Origin: Draconibacterium orientale | Lineage (GTDB): Bacteria; Bacteroidota; Bacteroidia; Bacteroidales; Prolixibacteraceae | DNA length: 64,000 bases | NCBI RefSeq assembly: GCF_000626635.1 | Contig: NZ_CP007451.1 | Coordinates: forward strand, 3,454,501 to 3,518,500 | Direction of reading: 5' to 3' | In this document: positions 9,253 to 32,611 of the stretch, piece by piece | Position numbering within the stretch: the first letter of the stretch is position 1 | How the letters are laid out: each line of letters begins with the position of its first letter | Program-made: the position numbers and the translations under genes | Notes under the pieces: model-generated | Database searches by the model: none | What the model was told of the DNA's origin: nothing | Seen by the model: the letters and a program-made list of their open reading frames with translations, nothing else

Positions 9253-9669
9253 GTGTTGGTGTGCCGTGCATGGTAAATAGCTATAGGGTGAAAGTCCTGA
9301 ATGGGGGTTTGTAGTGCCAACCATTAGCCGAAGGCAAGGGTGTCCATCGTGAGGTGGAATATGAAGGAAGCTGAAAGCAAATTTCTGACCCGAGGAACAC
9401 GAACATCATTAGGCATTTCCAATGGGATAAGTTTGCCAAACAAAACGAAGTCCAAAACTACACGGACATTGGAGTGTAGATGGTGCGGGAGGATGGAATG
9501 AAAGTTATTTATCTTACCGCGGGAGGTCTCACGGAGGTGTGGAAACAGAGTATGAAACACGGTTGGAAAAGATTTATCGTGAGAAGTCAGCCGAGGCCAT
9601 AGTACCATAACCGACAACTTATGGGAAGGGCCGAACCTTAATGAGTGAGAAGTAAATGAATGTTACTCA

Positions 9670-13489: not shown

Positions 13490-15376
13490 TTACCCCAACT
13501 CACTTAATTCCAGCCAGCGTAATTCTTTTTCGTCGAGCTGCGATTTCATGTCATCTAATTGCAACGATTTTTCATATAATTCGTCGTGCTTCAGCGTGCC
13601 CGAATTGAGCAAATCTTCCAATTCGCCAATCTGTTCTTCCAGTTCCGGGATTTCGTTTTCCAACTGCTCGAACTCGCGTTTTTCCTTAAACGATAATTTC
13701 TTTTTTGTTTGTGGTTGAGAAGGTTTCGCCACAGCTTCCGATTTTGCTTTGGCTTCCGCTTTCTTTTTCGCTTCGGCTTTGGCTTTTTGTTGCTCCTCTT
13801 CCTCCACTTTATTGCGGTAAACCGTGTAATTCCCTGGGAAGTCGGTAATCGCTCCTTCGCCTTCAAAAACAAAGAGGTGATCCACAATTTTATCCATAAA
13901 AAAGCGGTCGTGCGAAACCACCACCACGCAACCTGCAAACGACTGAAGATAATCTTCCAGCACATTCAGCGTCATAATATCCAGGTCGTTGGTTGGCTCA
14001 TCCAGGATGAGGAAATTCGGATTTTGCATCAACACCGTGCAAAGGTACAAGCGCCGCTGTTCGCCACCACTCAGCTTTTCAATGTAGTTGTATTGCGTTT
14101 CCGGCGGGAAAAGAAAATGTGTCAGCATTTGTGTCGCACTCATCTTCGTTCCATCCTCAAAATGAATAAACTCAGCAATTTTTTGCACGGCTTCAATTAC
14201 TTTTTCCCGCGGATCGAAAGCAATTCCTTCCTGGCGGTAGTACCCAAATTTTATGGTCTGACCGATTTCAATGGCACCTGAATCGGGCGTTAATGTTTGG
14301 GTCAACAGATTGAGGAAAGTCGATTTCCCGGTACCGTTTTTGCCCACGATTCCCACTTTCTCGAAACGTTGAAATTTATACGAAAAATCTTCGATCAGCT
14401 TAACGCCGGGGAACGATTTGGAGACATGCTCCAACTCGACAATCTTTTTGCCCAGTCGCGCCGATTTTACGTTCATTTCCACCTTGTCTTCCCGAATATT
14501 TTGCGAGGCTTTGTTTTTCAGATCCTGAAATGCATCAACGCGGTATTTTGCTTTGTGGCTTCTTGCTTTTGGCATGCGGCGCATCCACTCAATTTCGGTT
14601 CGCATCAGGTTTTTAGCCTTTGAAATGCTGGCCTGTTGCATGGCAATGCGTTCGTCGCGTTTTTCCAAGAAATAGGAGTAATTGCCCTGGTAACGATAAA
14701 TCTGGTTGTCCTCCATTTCGATGATCTCGTTGCAAACACGATCAAGGAAATAGCGGTCGTGCGTTACCATGAGTAGCGTCGATTTTGTTTTCTCGAGATA
14801 TGCTTCCAGCCATTCAATCATTTCCAGATCGAGGTGGTTGGTAGGCTCGTCAAGAATCAGTAAATCGGGTTGGTTAATCAGCACTTTTGCCAGTGCCAGT
14901 CGTTTTTGCTGCCCACCCGAAAGCTCCGAAACTTTCTGTTCAAGGAAATTAATCTTGAGCTCAGTAAGAATCTGTTTTATTTCCACTTCAATGGCCCAGG
15001 CATTCAGCTCGTCCATTTTTGCCGAAATAGCTGTAATTTCATCCTGTTTGTTGTGGGCCATAGCCAGCTCGAAAGCTTTTACTGTTTTTATCTTTTCGTT
15101 GTCGCTTTCAAAAACCTCCTCAATAACCGTGTTGTTCGGATTCAAGTCAGGAATCTGCTCGAAATAGCCCATTTTAACGTCGTTGCTGAGGGTAATGATG
15201 CCTTCGTCGGGCGATTCCTTACCGGCTAAAAGATCGAGCAGGGATGATTTTCCTGTTCCGTTTTTTGCAATCAAAGCAACTTTGGCTCCTTCAAAAACAG
15301 TGAAGGATATATTTTCGAAAAGCATTAACTCTCCCCAACGTTTCGAGAGGTTTTCGGCTTGTAAAAATGGTTTCAT
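13490..15376 (-). CDS. uup: ABC-F ATPase, Uup-like
   Basis: 628 residues with two ABC cassettes and no membrane part. Walker A motifs are AKNGTGKSS (about 37-45) and GKNGTGKST (second half); signatures are LSGGQQKR and LSGGEQRR; Walker B are LLILDEPTNHLDL and FLILDEPTNDLDI. A charged Lys/Ala-rich linker leads to a C-terminal coiled coil (about 560-625), the mark of Uup proteins. ABC-F proteins act on ribosomes; Uup also affects branched DNA and transposon excision in E. coli. The next gene upstream (15380) overlaps closely, suggesting co-transcription. Confidence 0.9.
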   Translation of the reverse strand: MKPFLQAENLSKRWGELMLFENISFTVFEGAKVALIAKNGTGKSSLLDLLAGKESPDEGIITLSNDVKMGYFEQIPDLNPNNTVIEEVFESDNEKIKTVKAFELAMAHNKQDEITAISAKMDELNAWAIEVEIKQILTELKINFLEQKVSELSGGQQKRLALAKVLINQPDLLILDEPTNHLDLEMIEWLEAYLEKTKSTLLMVTHDRYFLDRVCNEIIEMEDNQIYRYQGNYSYFLEKRDERIAMQQASISKAKNLMRTEIEWMRRMPKARSHKAKYRVDAFQDLKNKASQNIREDKVEMNVKSARLGKKIVELEHVSKSFPGVKLIEDFSYKFQRFEKVGIVGKNGTGKSTFLNLLTQTLTPDSGAIEIGQTIKFGYYRQEGIAFDPREKVIEAVQKIAEFIHFEDGTKMSATQMLTHFLFPPETQYNYIEKLSGGEQRRLYLCTVLMQNPNFLILDEPTNDLDIMTLNVLEDYLQSFAGCVVVVSHDRFFMDKIVDHLFVFEGEGAITDFPGNYTVYRNKVEEEEQQKAKAEAKKKAEAKAKSEAVAKPSQPQTKKKLSFKEKREFEQLENEIPELEEQIGELEDLLNSGTLKHDELYEKSLQLDDMKSQLDEKELRWLELSELG

Positions 15377-24513: not shown

Positions 24514-24813
24514 ATGGAAGAACAAATTATTTCAGATAAGCAACAAAAAATAGCCCGTTATGCAAAAGCGCTGGGACATCCGGTACGTGTGTATGTATTG
24601 CAATTACTGGGCAAACAAAGTTGTTGTTATAGTGGCGATTTAAGTGACGAGCTGCCAATTGCAAAGTCAACTTTATCGCAACATTTAAAAGAATTAAAGG
24701 ATGCAGGATTGATTCAGGGTGAAATTGAAGCTCCCCGAATTAAATATTGCGTGAACAAAGAAAACTGGGAAGAAGCGAAACAACTTTTTAGAGATTTTCT
24801 GAAATTGGATTAA
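24514..24813 (+). CDS. arsR: ArsR-family arsenical-responsive repressor (unit 1)
   Basis: 99 residues, a short winged-helix ArsR/SmtB protein. The DNA-recognition region is [18 protein letters not shown] (positions about 50-68), followed by the wing [15 protein letters not shown]. Adjacent cysteines C37-C38 ([10 protein letters not shown]), just before the recognition helices, and C79 (KYCVN) are candidate arsenic ligands. It opens the unit arsR-arsE-F-G-arsP-P5CR-like and lies behind the operator at 24391-24410, so autoregulation is likely. The spacing of Cys residues differs from E. coli ArsR, which may reflect specificity for organic arsenicals (inference). Confidence 0.9.
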
Positions 24814-26353: not shown

Positions 26354-26369
26354 TTCGTAAAAATACGAA
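26354..26369 (+). promoter_or_regulatory. ArsR operator-like site at the arsP start
   Basis: TTCG-TAAAAATA-CGAA: a 4-bp inverted repeat with the same 8-nt spacer as the arsR operator at 24391-24410. It overlaps the first possible ATG of arsP (26369), which may favour the next ATG at 26381 as start. Confidence 0.5.
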
Positions 26370-27424
26370 TGGTAAAAGAGATGAGAGAGAAAGTGATTGC
26401 ATTAAACAGAAAAACAAACGGTTGGTTACTTCCGCTATTAATGTTACCCGTTTGGGTATTATTGTACATGAATCTGCAAAACATTGCCGATTTAATTATC
26501 GACGATGTGGTTGGGATGACGGCCGGAAAACATTTAACCGAAACGCTGCGCTTTTTTATTTTCGAAGTGCCAAAAGTAATGCTCCTGCTGGTGTTGATTA
26601 TTTTCGGTGTGGGAATAATCCGCAGCTATTTCTCCACCGAGAAGACGCGTAAAATGTTGCAGGGGAAATCCTTGTTAACCGGAAATGTAATGTCGGCACT
26701 GTTGGGTATTGTAACTCCTTTTTGCTCGTGTTCCGCAATTCCCTTGTTTTTGGGTTTTGTTGAAGCAGGCATTCCCATTGGTGTTACCTTTTCGTTTTTA
26801 ATTGCAGCACCTATGGTAAACGAGGTTGCGCTTGTTTTGTTGGTTGGTTTGTTTGGCTGGAAAGTGGCGCTAATTTATGTAGCCACCGGTTTAACGATTG
26901 CCATTCTTTCGGGTTGGCTGATCGGGAAATTGAAAATGGAAAAATACGTTGCCGACTGGGTTTACAACGTAAAAGCAAATGCCGAGGGCGTTGAAGAAGA
27001 AAGGCTTTCGTTTAGCGACCGTATTCAGAAAGGATTTGATTCGGTTCGCGAGATAGTGGGTAAAATCTGGATTTACATTATAATTGGTATCGCTGTTGGG
27101 GCCGGGGCGCACGGTTATGTTCCGGAAGATTTCCTTGGCTCGCTTCTTGGAAAAGAAAACTGGTACGGTGTTCCGCTGGCCATTTTAATGGGCGTTCCTA
27201 TGTATTCCAACGCAGCCGGAATTATCCCCATTGTTAGTGTACTGATCGAAAAAGGAGTGTCGCTGGGTACTGCCCTGGCATTTATGATGTCGGTAATTGC
27301 CTTATCGCTCCCCGAAATTATCATCCTGAAGAAGGTTTTAAAGTGGCAATTAATTGCTGCATTTGTGGGCATTGTTGCTGCAGGAATTGTAATCGTAGGT
27401 TTCATTTTTAACTATGTGATGTAA
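26369..27424 (+). CDS. arsP: ArsP-family organoarsenical permease
   Basis: 351 residues, eight or more TM helices, DUF318/YraQ-ArsP family. The signature TPFCSCSAIP is at 116-125 and a second conserved block is ILMGVPMYSNAAGIIPIV. ArsP exports trivalent organoarsenicals such as methylarsenite or roxarsone(III). It is the fifth gene of the unit, 45 bases after arsG, with an ArsR-like site in between. The start may be 26369 or 26381. It complements the ArsG-like transporter, so the unit seems aimed at organic rather than inorganic arsenic. Confidence 0.88.
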   Translation: MVKEMREKVIALNRKTNGWLLPLLMLPVWVLLYMNLQNIADLIIDDVVGMTAGKHLTETLRFFIFEVPKVMLLLVLIIFGVGIIRSYFSTEKTRKMLQGKSLLTGNVMSALLGIVTPFCSCSAIPLFLGFVEAGIPIGVTFSFLIAAPMVNEVALVLLVGLFGWKVALIYVATGLTIAILSGWLIGKLKMEKYVADWVYNVKANAEGVEEERLSFSDRIQKGFDSVREIVGKIWIYIIIGIAVGAGAHGYVPEDFLGSLLGKENWYGVPLAILMGVPMYSNAAGIIPIVSVLIEKGVSLGTALAFMMSVIALSLPEIIILKKVLKWQLIAAFVGIVAAGIVIVGFIFNYVM

Positions 27425-27453: not shown

Positions 27454-28227
27454 ATGAAAACAAAAACCATTGGATTTATTGGTGGCGGAAGGATCACAAA
27501 GATCTTTCTGCAGGCGTTTAAAAACAAAAAAGTTGTTTTTGAGAACGTTAAAGTATTTGAACCAAACAGCGAAACGCTGAGTGCACTGCAAAATTTATTT
27601 CCGGATATTGACGTTGCCGATTCGGCACAAGAGGCCGCCCAGCAGAAATTGGTAGTTTTAGCTGTTCATCCGCCGGTAATGGCCGAAACACTGGCGGCCA
27701 TAAAAGATATGGTTACAGAAGATACGCAGGTACTTTCGCTGGCACCAAAAGTTACTATTGAGAAAATTGCCGCTGCTTTGGGAACTTCAAAGGTTGTTCG
27801 CATGATTCCTAATGCAACGTCCTTTATCAACAAAGGATATAATCCTGTGGCTTTTCACCCGGAAACTGATAAAAGGGCCAAAAAGAGTTTCATGAAACTG
27901 GTTAAAGCTTTAGGCAAAAACTTTGAGGTTGCAGAGAACAAACTGGAAGGATACGCCATTGTTTCGGCCATGTTGCCAACCTATTTCTGGTTTCAGTGGG
28001 AAGAGATGCTAAAAGTAGCTGTAGTCACTGGTTTGGATGAGAAAGAAGCAAAAAAAGCTGTGGAGGCCACATTGAAAAAATCGCTGTCAATTTTCTTTAA
28101 ATCCGGATTAACAGCCGATGAGGTAAAAGATCTGATTCCGGTAAAACCAATTGGCGATGCAGAAGAGCAGATTAAGGAAATTTACGAGACTAAACTGTTG
28201 GGTTTATATGATAAGATCAAGGCTTAA
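27454..28227 (+). CDS. Pyrroline-5-carboxylate-reductase-like NAD(P)-binding protein
   Basis: 257 residues. N-terminal Rossmann motif GFIGGGRITK (7-16), the P5CR-type segments LAVHPPVMAETL, VLSLAPKVTIEKI and VVRMIPNATSFINKG, then a helical C-terminal domain. The C-terminal catalytic block differs from true ProC (no typical GSGPAY/TV); YAIVSAMLPTYFWFQWEEML takes its place. Hence the substrate is probably not pyrroline-5-carboxylate. It lies 29 bases after arsP, inside the organoarsenical unit, and is followed by a terminator. Its link with arsenic is from context only. Confidence 0.8.
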   Translation: MKTKTIGFIGGGRITKIFLQAFKNKKVVFENVKVFEPNSETLSALQNLFPDIDVADSAQEAAQQKLVVLAVHPPVMAETLAAIKDMVTEDTQVLSLAPKVTIEKIAAALGTSKVVRMIPNATSFINKGYNPVAFHPETDKRAKKSFMKLVKALGKNFEVAENKLEGYAIVSAMLPTYFWFQWEEMLKVAVVTGLDEKEAKKAVEATLKKSLSIFFKSGLTADEVKDLIPVKPIGDAEEQIKEIYETKLLGLYDKIKA

Positions 28228-28254
28228 TAAAGTTACTGATTTGATGAAATTGAA

Positions 28255-28287
28255 GGAGGGTCGCCTAAAGGGTTACCCTCTTTTTTT
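28255..28287 (+). terminator. Terminator of arsenic unit 1
   Basis: GAGGGT (28256-28261) pairs with ACCCTC (28275-28280), followed by seven T. 28 bases after the P5CR-like stop. Confidence 0.85.
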
Positions 28288-28373
28288 GATCTCCGAAACC
28301 ATAAATATTTTGGGCTTTAAGAGTTCGTTAACATATTTTTTAGAACAAAGGCCGGGTTTTGGCCGTTTAAAAT

Positions 28374-28381
28374 TACCTTTG
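28374..28381 (+). promoter_or_regulatory. -7 box (TACCTTTG) of corA
   Basis: Matches TAnnTTTG; predicts a leader of about 120 nt before ATG 28507, which contains the switchable hairpins at 28452-28503. Confidence 0.5.
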
Positions 28382-28451
28382 CATGCGAATAAAAAAAAAC
28401 GAAAATTAATATGGACGAAGGCCCGTATCATAGAGAATTAAAAAATAACTC

Positions 28452-28503
28452 TTACCGCTAGGAGCCAAATTACCTCCTGCCGGTAACAAACAGAGGAGGT
28501 AAT
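28452..28503 (+). promoter_or_regulatory. corA leader with two mutually exclusive helices, one hiding the ribosome-binding site
   Basis: Helix A: TTACCG (28452-28457) with CGGTAA (28481-28486), plus AGGAG (28460-28464) with CTCCT (28474-28478) and a U-G pair. Helix B: ATTACCTCCT (28469-28478) with AGGAGGTAAT (28494-28503), a perfect 10-bp stem. CTCCT is used by both, so only one can form. Helix B buries AGGAGG, a perfect Shine-Dalgarno six bases before ATG 28507; helix A frees it. Does not look like the M-box. Confidence 0.65.
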
Positions 28504-28506
28504 ACC

Positions 28507-29439
28507 ATGTTGAAAATTTTCAAAACCTTTGGTGGATACAACGAAATTGAAAAGCCGGAAAGCGGTTGCTGGATTAATGTTACGCAACCCAACGCCAACG
28601 AAATAGAACTACTTACTAAAGACTTTAATGTGCCACAGGATGTTGTGCGCGATATTCTCGATACCGATGAGCGTTCGAGGATTGAGCACGATGACGACTG
28701 GTCGCTGATTATTATCCGTATTCCGGTGCCCGACAAGGACAACGGAGTTCCGTATTTTACGGTGCCGCTCGGGATATTTATGACCGATAGTTTTACCATT
28801 ACTATTTGTCAGGTGGAAAACGAGGTGCTACCTTACGATAGCCCGTCGCTGTACCGCGATAATGTTCGGCCGGTGAAAGACGTACTGAATTTTGCGTTGA
28901 AACTATTCCTGCGCACCGCCAATACTTATTTACGTTACCTGAAATACATTAACCAGCAAACCGCCATTATTGAGCAGGATCTGGAAAAATCGATCCGAAA
29001 TAAGGAATTGAACCGACTGCTGAAAATGGAAAAATGCCTGGTGTTTTTTATTACATCGATAAAAGCCAACGAACTGGTTTTGGCCAAGCTAAAAAATGGA
29101 AACCGACGCTCGATTAGTGAGATCAACGAAGATTTGCTGGAAGATGCCATAATCGAAAACAAACAGGCGCTTGATATGGCACAGATTTATTCCGACATTC
29201 AAAGTGGAATGATGGATGCTTTTGCTTCGGTTATTTCAAACAACCTGAACGTGGTAATGAAACAGCTGGCTTCCATTTCCATTATTTTAATGATCCCGAC
29301 ACTTGTAGCCAGTTTTTACGGAATGAACGTACCAAACAATTTGGAAACACATCGTTGGGCATTTTTTCTCATCCTCGGAATTTCGGTAGTTCTGGCACTT
29401 ATCGGTATCCTGATTTTCCGAAAACGAGAGTGGTTCTAA
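28507..29439 (+). CDS. corA: CorA-family magnesium/divalent cation transporter
   Basis: 310 residues. A large cytoplasmic N-terminal domain (about 1-245) is followed by two C-terminal TM helices with the selectivity signature Y-GMN in ASFYGMNVPNN and a short basic tail (FRKREWF). Homopentameric channel for Mg2+ (or Co2+/Ni2+/Zn2+ in relatives). It is not part of the ars operons, from which it is separated by terminators on both sides. Translation starts behind a perfect AGGAGG, rare in Bacteroidota, inside a switchable leader RNA, suggesting cation-responsive translation (inference). Confidence 0.92.
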   Translation: MLKIFKTFGGYNEIEKPESGCWINVTQPNANEIELLTKDFNVPQDVVRDILDTDERSRIEHDDDWSLIIIRIPVPDKDNGVPYFTVPLGIFMTDSFTITICQVENEVLPYDSPSLYRDNVRPVKDVLNFALKLFLRTANTYLRYLKYINQQTAIIEQDLEKSIRNKELNRLLKMEKCLVFFITSIKANELVLAKLKNGNRRSISEINEDLLEDAIIENKQALDMAQIYSDIQSGMMDAFASVISNNLNVVMKQLASISIILMIPTLVASFYGMNVPNNLETHRWAFFLILGISVVLALIGILIFRKREWF

Positions 29440-29537
29440 AATCAATATACCTTTAGTAAATAATTCACTTTAACCGATTATCCTTTCAATAAAATTTTTT
29501 GGGACTTTTACTCCAACCCTGAAGGGTGAAACCAAAA

Positions 29538-29587
29538 AAATCAATCTGGTTCCCTTTAGTGTTTAGGGTAAAACAGATTGAATTTTT
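29538..29587 (+). terminator. Terminator of corA
   Basis: TCAATCTG (29541-29548) pairs with CAGATTGA (29574-29581), with an inner CCCT/AGGG pair; a T-run follows at 29583-29587. Confidence 0.75.
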
Positions 29588-29670
29588 CAATGAATCTGTT
29601 AAAGTAGCAATAATCAGTTTACCGTAATTTAATGATTTGTTTGGATGTATATATACGTCGGATTTGTTTT

Positions 29671-29690
29671 TTGACGTATATTTGCGTCAA
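29671..29690 (+). promoter_or_regulatory. ArsR operator with embedded -7 box (second arsR)
   Basis: TTGACG and CGTCAA form a perfect 6-bp inverted repeat around TATATTTG, exactly 8 nt and a perfect TAnnTTTG box. ATG 29702 is 11 bases on. Same geometry but different arm sequence from 24391-24410. Further ACGTCG-like half site at about 29655. Confidence 0.72.
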
Positions 29691-29701
29691 AACAAGCAAC
29701 A

Positions 29702-30034
29702 ATGGTACAATCAAAGACAGAATTATTTGAGGAGGAGCTAAAAACACAGGCTGCCTGGTTTAAGGTGTTGGCGCACCCGGCACGTTTAAAAATATTGCAG
29801 TACCTGTCGGAAGCCAACAGTTGCATTACCGGTGATCTTTCGGAAGAATTACCATTGGGCAGAACCACCGTAAATCAGCACATTAAAGAGTTGAAAGAAG
29901 CAGGTTTGATACAAGGGCATATCGAAGGTGTTCGGACTAAATATTGTTTGAACCCGGAGAAAATTGCTGAGGTGAAAGCCGTAATCGAAGAATTCTTAAG
30001 TGCCCTGAATGCTGGTGATTATGAATGTAAATAA
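29702..30034 (+). CDS. arsR: ArsR-family arsenite-responsive repressor (unit 2)
   Basis: 110 residues, ArsR/SmtB winged helix. The recognition region is GRTTVNQHIKELKEAGLI and the wing IEGVRTKYCLNPEKI. Cys at 39 (ANSCITGDL), 83 (KYCLN) and the C-terminal ECK are possible As(III) ligands. It shares its overall plan with the first ArsR (KYCxN, HIKELKEAGLIQG) but its DNA site has other arm bases, so the two units are probably controlled independently. It opens arsC-arsM-acr3. Confidence 0.9.
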   Translation: MVQSKTELFEEELKTQAAWFKVLAHPARLKILQYLSEANSCITGDLSEELPLGRTTVNQHIKELKEAGLIQGHIEGVRTKYCLNPEKIAEVKAVIEEFLSALNAGDYECK

Positions 30035-30084
30035 GCGTGATATGTATAGCTGTATTTTACTAAAAATGAATATACATATTAAAT

Positions 30085-30152
30085 ATCAATTCGTTTACGC
30101 TTATCCGCCAGCGGGTGGAAGCGAATTGATTGTTACTGGTCCCTTTAGGGAC
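30085..30152. repeat. Intergenic hairpins between arsR 2 and arsC
   Basis: ATCAATTCG (30085-30093) pairs with CGAATTGAT (30122-30130), enclosing a TCCGCCAGCGGG-type palindrome; GTCCC-TTTA-GGGAC follows at 30139-30152. Member of the small intergenic palindrome families seen elsewhere. Confidence 0.5.
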
Positions 30153-30232
30153 GGGGTAGTCAGTGATAATCAATTTGCAGAATAGGAATTAGCTGAAATT
30201 CAATCATAGCCAAAAAATAAATAATTTATAAA

Positions 30233-30658
30233 ATGAAAGTATTAATTCTTTGTACAGGTAATAGCTGCCGCAGCCAGATGGCACACGGCTTTTTACAATC
30301 GTTCGATGCGCGTATTCAGGTAGAATCGGGAGGCACCGAAGCTTCCGGAAAACTCAACCGAAAAGCCGTGAAAGCAATGGCCGAAATTGGGATCGATATC
30401 AGCGGACATACTTCCGATTCGGTTCAGAAATTCTTAAACGACAAATGGGATTATGTAATTACCGTTTGTGGTGGTGCCAACGAAAATTGCCCGGCTTTTT
30501 TCGGTGAAGTGAAAAACCGCCTGCACATTGGTTTCGACGATCCGTCGCATGCCACCGGCACCGACGAGTTTATCTGGAGCGAGTTTATCCGGGTGCGCGA
30601 CGAAATAAAAGAACGGTTTTTTAAACTATACGAGGACGAGATTAAACCGCAATTATAA
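30233..30658 (+). CDS. arsC: Thioredoxin-coupled arsenate reductase (LMW-PTP fold)
   Basis: 141 residues. The phosphatase-like loop C7-x5-R13 (ILCTGNSCRS) begins the protein. The redox relay cysteines C79 and C86 (TVCGGANENCP) keep the 7-residue spacing of S. aureus pI258 ArsC C82/C89. It reduces arsenate to arsenite, with thioredoxin restoring the final disulfide. The arsenite is then methylated by ArsM or exported by Acr3 encoded downstream. Confidence 0.95.
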   Translation: MKVLILCTGNSCRSQMAHGFLQSFDARIQVESGGTEASGKLNRKAVKAMAEIGIDISGHTSDSVQKFLNDKWDYVITVCGGANENCPAFFGEVKNRLHIGFDDPSHATGTDEFIWSEFIRVRDEIKERFFKLYEDEIKPQL

Positions 30659-30777
30659 CAGGAACATGAATTTTCATTCTTTAAATTCATAAAAAGAAGA
30701 ACGAAAATTGGCTCAGGACGAACTTCGTTTCACCGGGAGTCAGATTGAATACGACTGAAATAAACAATTTTTAGGAA

Positions 30778-31587
30778 ATGAAAGCAGAGGACTTAAAGCT
30801 TATTGTAAAAGAAAAATACGGCGAAATTGCTTCGAAAAGTAATTTGCTGAAAGAAAATTCTTGTTGCGGCGTTTCGGGTTGTTGTGGCGACTTCGAGTTC
30901 AGTATGATTGGCGAAGAGTATAACAATATTGCAGGGCACAATCCTGATGCCGACCTTGCATTGGGCTGTGGATTGCCAACGCAATATGCCGGAATAAAAA
31001 TCGGCGATAGTGTTTTAGACCTTGGATCGGGAGCCGGAAACGATTGTTTTGTTGCACGCGCTATTGTTGGCGAAACAGGGCATGTTACAGGAATTGATTT
31101 TACCGATGAGATGTTGAAAAAAGCCTTCCAAAACCTAAAAAAATCAGGAATTAAAAATATGGATTTCGTTAAAGGCGACATTGAAAATATGCCTTTAAAC
31201 GACAACACATTCGATGTTGTGATCAGCAATTGTGTGCTTAATCTTGTTCCCGATAAACAACGGGCATTCAGCGAAATTTACCGGGTATTAAAATCGGGCG
31301 GGCATTTCTGTATTTCTGACGTGGTAGCATTGGGTAATTTGCCACAAAAATTACGTGAAGCTGCCGAAATGTATGCAGGTTGCGTTTCCGGGGCGATTCT
31401 TAAGGAGGAATACCTGGCGCTGATAAAAGAGCAGGGTTTTGCTGATGTTGAAGTAAAAGCAGAAAGGGAGATTAAAATTCCTGAGGATGTTTTGTCGAAA
31501 TACATTTCTTCCGAAACCATCAATGAGATTCAGCAAAACAAAGTAGGGATTTTTAGTATTACGGTTAATGGAACAAAAAATGGGTAA
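30778..31587 (+). CDS. arsM: Arsenite S-adenosylmethionine methyltransferase
   Basis: 269 residues. SAM motif [12 protein letters not shown] at about 79-89. The three arsenic-binding cysteines match known ArsM: C64 (LGCGLPT), C152 (ISNCVLNLV) and C202 (YAGCVSGA), with the 50-residue C152-C202 distance as in algal ArsM. An N-terminal CC...CC cluster (C29-C30, C35-C36) is common in Bacteroidota forms. It methylates As(III) to mono-, di- and trimethyl species. Its stop overlaps the acr3 start, showing translational coupling. Methylated product may be handled by the ArsP/ArsG unit upstream. Confidence 0.95.
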
Positions 31588-32611
31588 CAGCAAAAAACAA
31601 ATCGGATTTTTTGAAAAATACCTCAGTTTGTGGGTGGCAATTTGTATTGCTGTTGGAATTGGCATTGGGCACCTGGCCGGAGACAGTATACAGGTATTGA
31701 GTAATATGGAAATTTACAAGGTGAATATTCCGGTTGCTGTTTTAATCTGGATGATGATTTACCCCATGATGCTTCAGGTTGATTTTTCGAGCATCAGGAA
31801 TGTGGGGAAACGCCCCAAAGGTTTAATCCTTACTTTAATTGTAAACTGGCTGATAAAACCTTTTACCATGGCATTTTTTGCCTGGATATTTTTCTCCAAA
31901 CTATATTCAGCTTTTATCTCGCCCGAACAGGCAGGTGAATACATTGCCGGCGCGATACTGCTGGGAGCAGCGCCATGTACCGCAATGGTATTTGTATGGA
32001 GCTATTTAACCAACGGAGACCCGAATTACACCCTGGTACAGGTTTCGGTTAACGACCTGATTATTTTGGTTGCGTTTATCCCGATCGTTGGTTTTCTTTT
32101 GGGCATAACAAATATTACCATTCCGTACGACACGCTGGTTGCCAGTATTATAGTATTTGTGGTAGTGCCGCTTCTGGCGGGTTATTTCACTCATAAAGTA
32201 CTTGTTAAACGTAAGGGGGAAGAATGGTTTAAAAACACGTTTCTTCCGAAGTTTAAACCGGTTTCAATAATTGCCTTGTTGCTTACACTGGTTTTGTTGT
32301 TTGCTTTTCAGGGAAATATTATCGTTAATAACCCGCTGATTATTGTGCTGGTGGCCATTCCGCTGGTTATTCAAACCTACTTTATCTTTTTTATTGCCTG
32401 GTTTGGTGGAAGGAAATTGAAATTACCGCACGCCATTTGTTCTCCGGCAGCAATGATCGGTGCCAGTAATTTTTTCGAATTGGCCGTGGCTGTTGCAATT
32501 GCTTTGTTCGGGTTACAATCGCCGGCGGCAATGGTTACAGTGGTAGGTGTTTTGGTTGAAGTGCCGGTAATGCTCTCGCTGGTGAAGCTGGCCAATAAGT
32601 GGAAGTATTAA
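31568..32611 (+). CDS. acr3: ACR3-family arsenite efflux permease
   Basis: 347 residues, ten TM helices of the BART superfamily. Conserved C137 lies in [14 protein letters not shown] and the functional Glu region in [18 protein letters not shown]. It exports As(III) with proton motive force and needs no ArsA. The ATG at 31568 overlaps arsM by 20 bases; an alternative in-frame ATG is 31580. Last gene of unit 2. Downstream are REP-like sequences, a 21-bp hairpin and an IS1595 insertion. Confidence 0.94.

Follow-up and report, generated by a model that had tools for sequence, protein, structure and literature searches.

Mg2+ transporter genes can be preceded by leaders that adopt mutually exclusive structures, as in the M-box and mgtA-leader riboswitch classes. 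In other cases, a short upstream open reading frame (uORF) takes part in the control. Ribosomes translating the EPDP sequence of MgtL drop off in low Mg2+ (EttA paper). In E. coli, translation of corL is inversely related to expression of corA (PMC11552253). In Salmonella mgtQ, Asp2 and Glu5 impede the translation of the uORF itself, and alternative stems expose the ribosome-binding site (RBS) of mgtB (PMC8092293). Of the four segments of the mgtQ leader, numbered 1 to 4, region 1 carries the uORF; occupancy of the uORF by a ribosome promotes the open state, and mgtB falls when the uORF start is lost. A conserved corA leader from Gammaproteobacteria and metagenomic DNA, the corA motif, was proposed as a riboswitch candidate (PMC6429828). 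Further literature was also drawn on (PMC9976891, PMC11282234, PMC9718836, PMC7366714, PMC6847099).

No corA uORF in Bacteroidota is described in the literature searched, with subscription papers and supplements outside the search. A published map of Bacteroides thetaiotaomicron mentions small ORFs in long 5′ UTRs in its supplement, and a uORF of this type may simply be listed there. As far as these searches go, leaders of this kind (acidic-peptide Mg2+ leaders) are known, and the family, the phylum and the translational design at corA are new.

The corA Locus of Draconibacterium orientale

The window, that is, the whole 64,000-nucleotide stretch of D. orientale DNA analysed here, contains a corA gene preceded by a leader of about 120 nt, as counted from the predicted promoter. 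The features of this region, all on the + strand, are the following.

28374..28381, +, predicted Bacteroidota-type -7 promoter element TAnnTTTG (TACCTTTG), read in the sequence
28411..28461, +, uORF (putative leader peptide MDEGPYHRELKNNSYR, 16 codons), with its TAG stop at 28459-28461, within the 5′ arm of helix A
28414..28425, +, Asp-Glu-Gly-Pro at the beginning of the peptide, acidic with a proline, where ribosomes are proposed to abort or pause, from the charge-blind uORF comparison
28452..28464, +, 5′ arm of helix A (TTACCGCTAGGAG), overlapping the last uORF codons and the stop
28469..28478, +, 5′ arm of helix B, or anti-Shine-Dalgarno arm (ATTACCTCCT), overlapping the 3′ arm of helix A at 28474-28478
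28474..28486, +, 3′ arm of helix A (CTCCTGCCGGTAA); own-partner pairing, 0/5000 permutations
28494..28503, +, 3′ arm of helix B (AGGAGGTAAT), with the Shine-Dalgarno (SD) sequence AGGAGG at 28494-28499; own-partner pairing, 0/5000
28507..29439, +, corA, encoding a 310-aa CorA-type Mg2+ transporter (by family) with a GMN motif (PF01544, E 2.2e-51)

The product of corA matches PF01544 with 175.3 bits, for a Pfam cut-off of 27, and TIGR00383 with 128.3, under the cut-off of 200.75 of that model. An alignment of CorA proteins shows the YGMN motif. The protein is thus assigned as a Mg2+ transporter by family only, from PF01544 and the GMN motif.

Several neighbouring elements may be mentioned for themselves. 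An arsenic-type cluster lies directly 3′ of corA (29702-32611, +), with an ArsR-family regulator, an LMWPc protein, a SAM methyltransferase and an SBF-family transporter, and is adjoined by an IS1595-type transposase (PF12762; 32853-33758, -). On the 5′ side are an ArsP_1 permease (26369-27421) and an ORF at 24514 that is ArsR-like by eye. Farther away, 13772-15352 (-) encodes an ABC-F-like protein with two ABC domains, which scores 484 bits against the EttA model, below its cut-off, the match above the cut-off lying elsewhere in the genome. Group II intron domain matches at 9343-9631 (+; RF02001, 137.5 bits; RF01998, 51.6 bits) indicate that a group II intron is probably present. An intrinsic terminator in the corA leader was considered and rejected, the three found in 27500-30000 being all on the - strand.

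Two Competing Helices in the Leader

Reading the sequence bears out the two helices where the original prediction had placed them. Helix A has 12 pairs (one of them G-T) with one C.C mismatch, and helix B has 10 perfect pairs covering AGGAGG; CTCCT at 28474-28478 is common to both. The spacing between AGGAGG and the ATG of corA (28507) had been given as six bases and is in fact 7. The RBS of corA thus sits in a perfect 10-bp helix that competes with helix A (an RNA thermometer would hold its RBS in an imperfect, heat-labile helix). Folding 71 nt of the window leader yields helix A (z -2.12), and folding 161 nt yields helix B (z -2.66). As evidence against chance, folding of one sequence is only suggestive, and weaker than the comparative test described below.

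An Upstream ORF With an Acidic Start Precedes corA in Many Bacteroidota

The uORF begins 5′ of helix A with ATG GAC GAA GGC CCG TAT CAT. Two sets of corA leaders were compared, one of 128 (26 from the genus, 60 from the order and 42 from the class or phylum) and one of 79 from named records, making 207 in total. These sets overlap (L206 and L015, for example); the counts over 207 are therefore not independent, and 81 non-redundant representatives were used. Left out were L113 (same place as L071), L141 (a match from residue 35 at a record end), the G014 fragment, a partial match in G284 and weaker CorA paralogues.

A uORF was scored if it starts with M-[D/E]-[D/E] 45-140 nt 5′ of corA and ends before corA. 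By this rule, 143/207 corA leaders have one. In the first set, the proportion is 23/26 in the genus, 43/60 in the order and 15/42 in the class or phylum (81/128 together), and it is 62/79 in the named loci. Dinucleotide-shuffled leaders give 23/6400. Among the window ORFs of at least 120 aa, only 1/59 is preceded by such a uORF, namely corA, and the 60 matches among 263 ORFs of the compared loci are all corA, as judged from N-termini. The corA orthologs of the genus have leaders with the same uORF and re-made helices. TAnnTTTG, which we take to be the Bacteroidota-type -7 promoter consensus, is found at most 70 nt 5′ of the uORF in 68/81 representative leaders, against 309/8100 mononucleotide shuffles.

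Named carriers include Bacteroides oleiciplenus, Mediterranea massiliensis, Phocaeicola plebeius, a Parabacteroides, an Odoribacter MAG, Flavobacterium johnsoniae CI04, Prolixibacter bellariivorans and Mariniphaga anaerophila. Some named records are MAGs that may be misassigned, chiefly those labelled Ignavibacteriales and Kapabacteria, among which carriers also occur and whose labels could be binning errors. Near variants were not counted: MESDPYPGEY (L015, L016, L206), MDAGPKY (L209) and MDGVPDN (L041). Yeosuana marina (L190), also uncounted, retains the codons for DEGPYH, but preceded by TTG in place of ATG; this is a naturally occurring form of the uORF with a weak start.

No M[DE][DE] uORF was found in 64/207 leaders, including those of the one named Chlorobiaceae, two named Desulfobacter-type records and four Bacteroides (L131, L133, L134, L137). 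In three of these Bacteroides (L131, L133, L134), the hairpin and the SD are kept and TAnnTTTG lies near the hairpin, with the acidic uORF absent; this may be a natural loss of the sensor. In L013, which belongs to the same genus as D. orientale and has a 2.2-Mb genome, the uORF start has decayed (ATGATCCGTATCAT) and the hairpin region is partly kept.

A genus leader model (R1) built from 17 leaders gives strong matches in 27/37 genus genomes, each at corA or its fragment (G014), the 17 leaders behind the model matching by construction. R1 thus points to no regulon beyond corA in the 37 genus genomes, the other matches having E >0.015. The pattern TTTG-N19-33-ATGGANGA has 96 matches in the D. 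orientale genome against 70 for the reversed control, which gives no evidence of further members there.

Selection Acts on the Charge of the Leader Peptide

The uORF was also defined by a charge-blind rule, as the first ATG 12-45 nt after TAnnTTTG and -140 to -60 from corA. Such a uORF is found in 127/207 leaders, 116/127 of them (62/67 non-redundant) with an acidic amino acid at both residue 2 and residue 3; in three of the 11 exceptions, the only difference is a start at an ATG lying 5′ of the same MDE frame. At codon 3 of these uORFs, variation is 0.48 for the third base, compared with 0.07 and 0.04 for the first two, and at codons 4-8 all bases vary. This repeat is to be preferred to the third-base count made at codons 2, 3 and 5 under the acidic rule, which is partly circular (the rule fixes GA and the grouping fixes CC). 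Among the 81 representatives, D occupies residue 2 in 79 (E in 2) and residue 3 in 58 (E in 23). K or R occurs at residues 4-5 in 1/81, proline among residues 2-8 in 52/81, and at least three acidic residues among residues 2-8 in 25/81, most uORFs having only about two. Residues 4-7 are semi-conserved, with Y or P in 78/81, and uORF length ranges from 8 to 25 codons. From the codon patterns, the constraint on the peptide is at the level of charge, with D and E interchangeable.

Codon 2 is GAC in 75/81. Base-level conservation was rejected as the explanation; avoidance of an out-of-frame ATG, which GAT would create before G, is likelier, and other ATGs within 12 nt still occur in 14/81. Bacteroidetes, according to published work, avoid AUG in the neighbourhood of start codons. 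Together, the out-of-frame ATG that GAT would make and this avoidance suggest that the ATG of the uORF is used. An amino-acid starvation attenuator was also rejected, the listed uORFs sharing no single-codon run. A modest enrichment of A 5′ of the uORF may reflect background.

Both Helices Are Conserved and Mutually Exclusive

Pairing was evaluated by comparing, for a fixed upstream window, its own partner window with the windows of other leaders, over the 81 non-redundant leaders. For helix A, the own partner gives -13.40 kcal/mol and others -7.58 (0/5000 permutations), and for helix B -15.06 and -10.43 (0/5000). The representatives are not phylogenetically independent; control windows, which guard against that, give 3911/5000 and 389/5000, the latter control being itself low and reaching 209/5000 in the SD subset. 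The fixed windows replace an earlier mate test for helix A that was biased, with the split chosen per leader. An ungapped pairing count shows a small difference in the same comparison, 9.20 vs 8.57 of 12 pairs (64 leaders; 0/5000). The types of pairs flanking GGAG differ on both sides (tabulated for 49 of the 64 leaders that have GGAG). The 3′ arm of helix A and the 5′ arm of helix B overlap by at least 4 nt in 45/50 order-level representatives. In the 64 leaders without a uORF, helix A gives 0/5000 and helix B 1008/5000.

The original prediction had named conservation in relatives as its check, and both helices are indeed kept. The comparison thus gives good support to the view that the two helices are real, conserved and mutually exclusive, and that one of them hides the RBS.

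A Strong Shine-Dalgarno Sequence in a Phylum Reported Not to Use It

According to published work, Bacteroidia ribosomes make no use of SD sequences except at rpsU and certain ribosomal-protein genes. A strong SD had been called unusual in this setting, and this holds within the window: GGAGG or AGGAG at -20 to -4 precedes only corA among the 47 ORFs of at least 150 aa, and 0/46 of the others. The same motifs are found in 61/81 corA leaders with a uORF and in 9/64 without. In Flavobacterium leaders, which lack the SD, helix B seems to extend as far as the start codon. For helix B, SD-less Flavobacterium-like leaders give 1024/2000 (6 leaders) when the window ends before the start codon, and SD-less leaders give 12/5000 (13 representatives) when the start codon is in the window.

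Register of the uORF Stop and Helix A

The 5′ arm of helix A starts between -15 and +5 nt from the end of the uORF stop in 78/81 leaders, whereas 5000 permutations give a mean of 50.3 and a maximum of 62. With the leading edge of the ribosome set at 15-16 nt, the published toeprint distance, helix A is clear of a ribosome that has codon 3 in the P site, starting at least 22 nt past the uORF ATG in 80/81. It starts at most 9 nt beyond the stop in 81/81, and a terminating ribosome would therefore cover it.

Folding was then constrained by ribosome footprints. With the ribosome at the stop rather than at codon 3, the SD/start region is less open in 39/81 leaders, more open in 6 and about equal in 36. 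When the ribosome-free RNA is compared with the stop state, this region is more open in 21/81, less open in 10 and similar in 50. In the window leader, openness is 0.15 with no ribosome, 0.38 with the ribosome at codon 3 and 0.25 at the stop. The free leader of the window is thus not predicted to be open, and its longer fold contains helix B, so that the step turning corA on would need either a paused ribosome or the formation of helix A first, during transcription. Because of this result for free RNA, our confidence that corA is off after full translation of the uORF was lowered slightly.

A Ribosome-Operated Switch as the Preferred Reading

In the mechanism that we propose, ribosomes would initiate at 28411 and make the acidic leader peptide. 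A ribosome arriving at the TAG (28459-28461) would cover the 5′ arm of helix A; the shared strand would then pair with the SD in helix B and corA would be off. If translation were aborted or paused near codons 2-5, helix A would stay, the anti-SD strand would be held and the SD would be free, so that corA would be on. This supposes that helix A, being transcribed first, is also able to fold first. Low cytosolic Mg2+ would be the most likely cause of ribosome failure, by intrinsic ribosome destabilisation as on MgtL, and the importer would be made when Mg2+ is short. It is from the MgtL, mgtQ and corL precedents that we infer this input.

Sequence and comparison support the architecture well, namely the uORF with its constraint on charge, the two exclusive helices and the register of the stop with helix A. 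The corA leader is very probably a uORF-controlled translational switch, and full translation of the uORF probably turns corA off. That Mg2+ is the main input, through the acidic peptide, is by analogy somewhat favoured. Taken whole, with the uORF switch, the on/off direction and the low-Mg2+ input, this explanation has our moderate confidence. Some evidence tells against it. In 36/81 leaders, folding changes little between the two ribosome positions. The 64/207 leaders that lack the uORF, the low value of one control pairing and the SD-less Flavobacterium-like leaders belong on this side too. The acidity of these uORF peptides is modest, which counts against the Mg2+ input. According to the EttA paper, di-acidic residues alone are insufficient, and in the IRD paper, which concerns yeast here, abortion is roughly proportional to the number of D/E, most ORFs that carry 4 D/E showing it only weakly. 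The latter source also describes that high Mg2+ counteracts the destabilisation of ribosomes by acidic residues.

Alternative Readings of the Leader

The architecture had been taken in the original prediction for that of a translational riboswitch or cation-sensing leader. The translational switch with exclusive helices is supported; an RNA aptamer such as the M-box is probably not the sensor, the conserved uORF (28411-28461) having been missed. The view that no known class is recognised agrees with the search of Rfam, which gives no match at gathering score near the leader, those listed at E up to 10 being far under that score (best E 0.28). An RNA-only sensor, either a Mg2+ aptamer or an RNA thermometer, with an incidental uORF, would have in its favour that two exclusive helices could switch ribosome-free and that free-RNA folds vary with the length folded. 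Such a sensor is nonetheless very improbable, since the conserved 5′ part is kept as amino-acid charge and not as bases, since no Rfam class applies and since the uORF stop tracks helix A. Hence the sensor is probably, by analogy with the leaders cited above, the translating ribosome with its nascent acidic peptide.

If the ribosome reads the uORF, what it reports may still be debated. The same switch could have another input, the uORF reporting the general state of translation (initiation rate, drop-off factors, ABC-F or bL31 level, ribosome supply), with Mg2+ as one of many influences. In E. coli, destabilisation depends also on bL31 and EttA, and an EttA-type ABC-F above the cut-off is present in the D. 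orientale genome; but strong matches of the genus model are confined to a Mg2+ transporter gene, and the precedents likewise serve Mg2+ importers, which makes this reading unlikely. A sequence-specific arrest peptide, whose nascent chain would stall the ribosome at a defined codon, possibly assisted by a metal ion or some other cofactor, and thereby select the helix, seems slightly less probable again. The semi-conservation of residues 4-7 would fit it, whereas the near-universal feature is the charge at residues 2-3 and the remainder drifts, with MDEGPYH, MDDYHPD, MDDSNPR and MDDYYSL types. Moreover, a chain of 3-7 residues is scarcely at the tunnel contacts used by known arrest peptides. The leader might also sense ribosomes with an exposed anti-SD, for instance those without bS21, as proposed for Flavobacterium rpsU. 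Such a sensor would account for a strong SD in three quarters of the leaders (61/81) of organisms whose ribosomes are described as blind to it. It is however highly doubtful, because Flavobacterium leaders without an SD still keep the switch, and because use of the SD explains the output, not the uORF.

Comparison With Described Leaders

The proposed ribosome-operated switch resembles the three uORF systems in different respects. Like mgtQ-mgtB, it would combine a very short acidic uORF with alternative stems, which leave the RBS of a gene for a Mg2+ transporter either exposed or hidden, under translational control, the comparison being made by description (PMC8092293). It differs in that mgtQ-mgtB is intergenic, not promoter-proximal, and controls another transporter family (MgtB); in contrast to mgtQ, a ribosome finishing the corA uORF of Draconibacterium should close the RBS. 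As in corL-corA of E. coli and Salmonella, a uORF precedes corA and two structures are exclusive, being Mg2+-responsive there (PMC11552253), but corL-corA involves Rho-dependent transcription termination and a three-way junction, whereas here a short leader hides the SD or the start codon. With mgtL-mgtA of E. coli and Salmonella, it shares an acidic/proline start, which in mgtL (EPDP) aborts translation in low Mg2+ and turns the leader on; that control is at the level of transcription (Rho), with a different peptide and different structures. The resemblance to mgtL and mgtQ is claimed no further than acidic residues. Finally, the M-box and mgtA-leader classes are metal-binding RNA sensors, and their Rfam covariance models do not match here.

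Whether these leaders form a Bacteroidota-wide Mg2+ gauge, based on ribosome instability on an acidic start peptide and apparently independent of enterobacterial mgtL, corL and mgtQ, is in our view evenly balanced. If they do, destabilisation by acidic peptides would be a general bacterial sensor of Mg2+, found here where ribosomes are thought to ignore an exposed SD, and intrinsic ribosome destabilisation would recur as a Mg2+ sensor outside enterobacteria, including in gut Bacteroides and in Flavobacterium johnsoniae, for which genetics is available. The leaders would also supply a naturally occurring collection of acidic start peptides with which to test what destabilises ribosomes, and the strong Shine-Dalgarno sequence kept together with its own lock in Bacteroidota would make SD use testable beyond ribosomal-protein genes.
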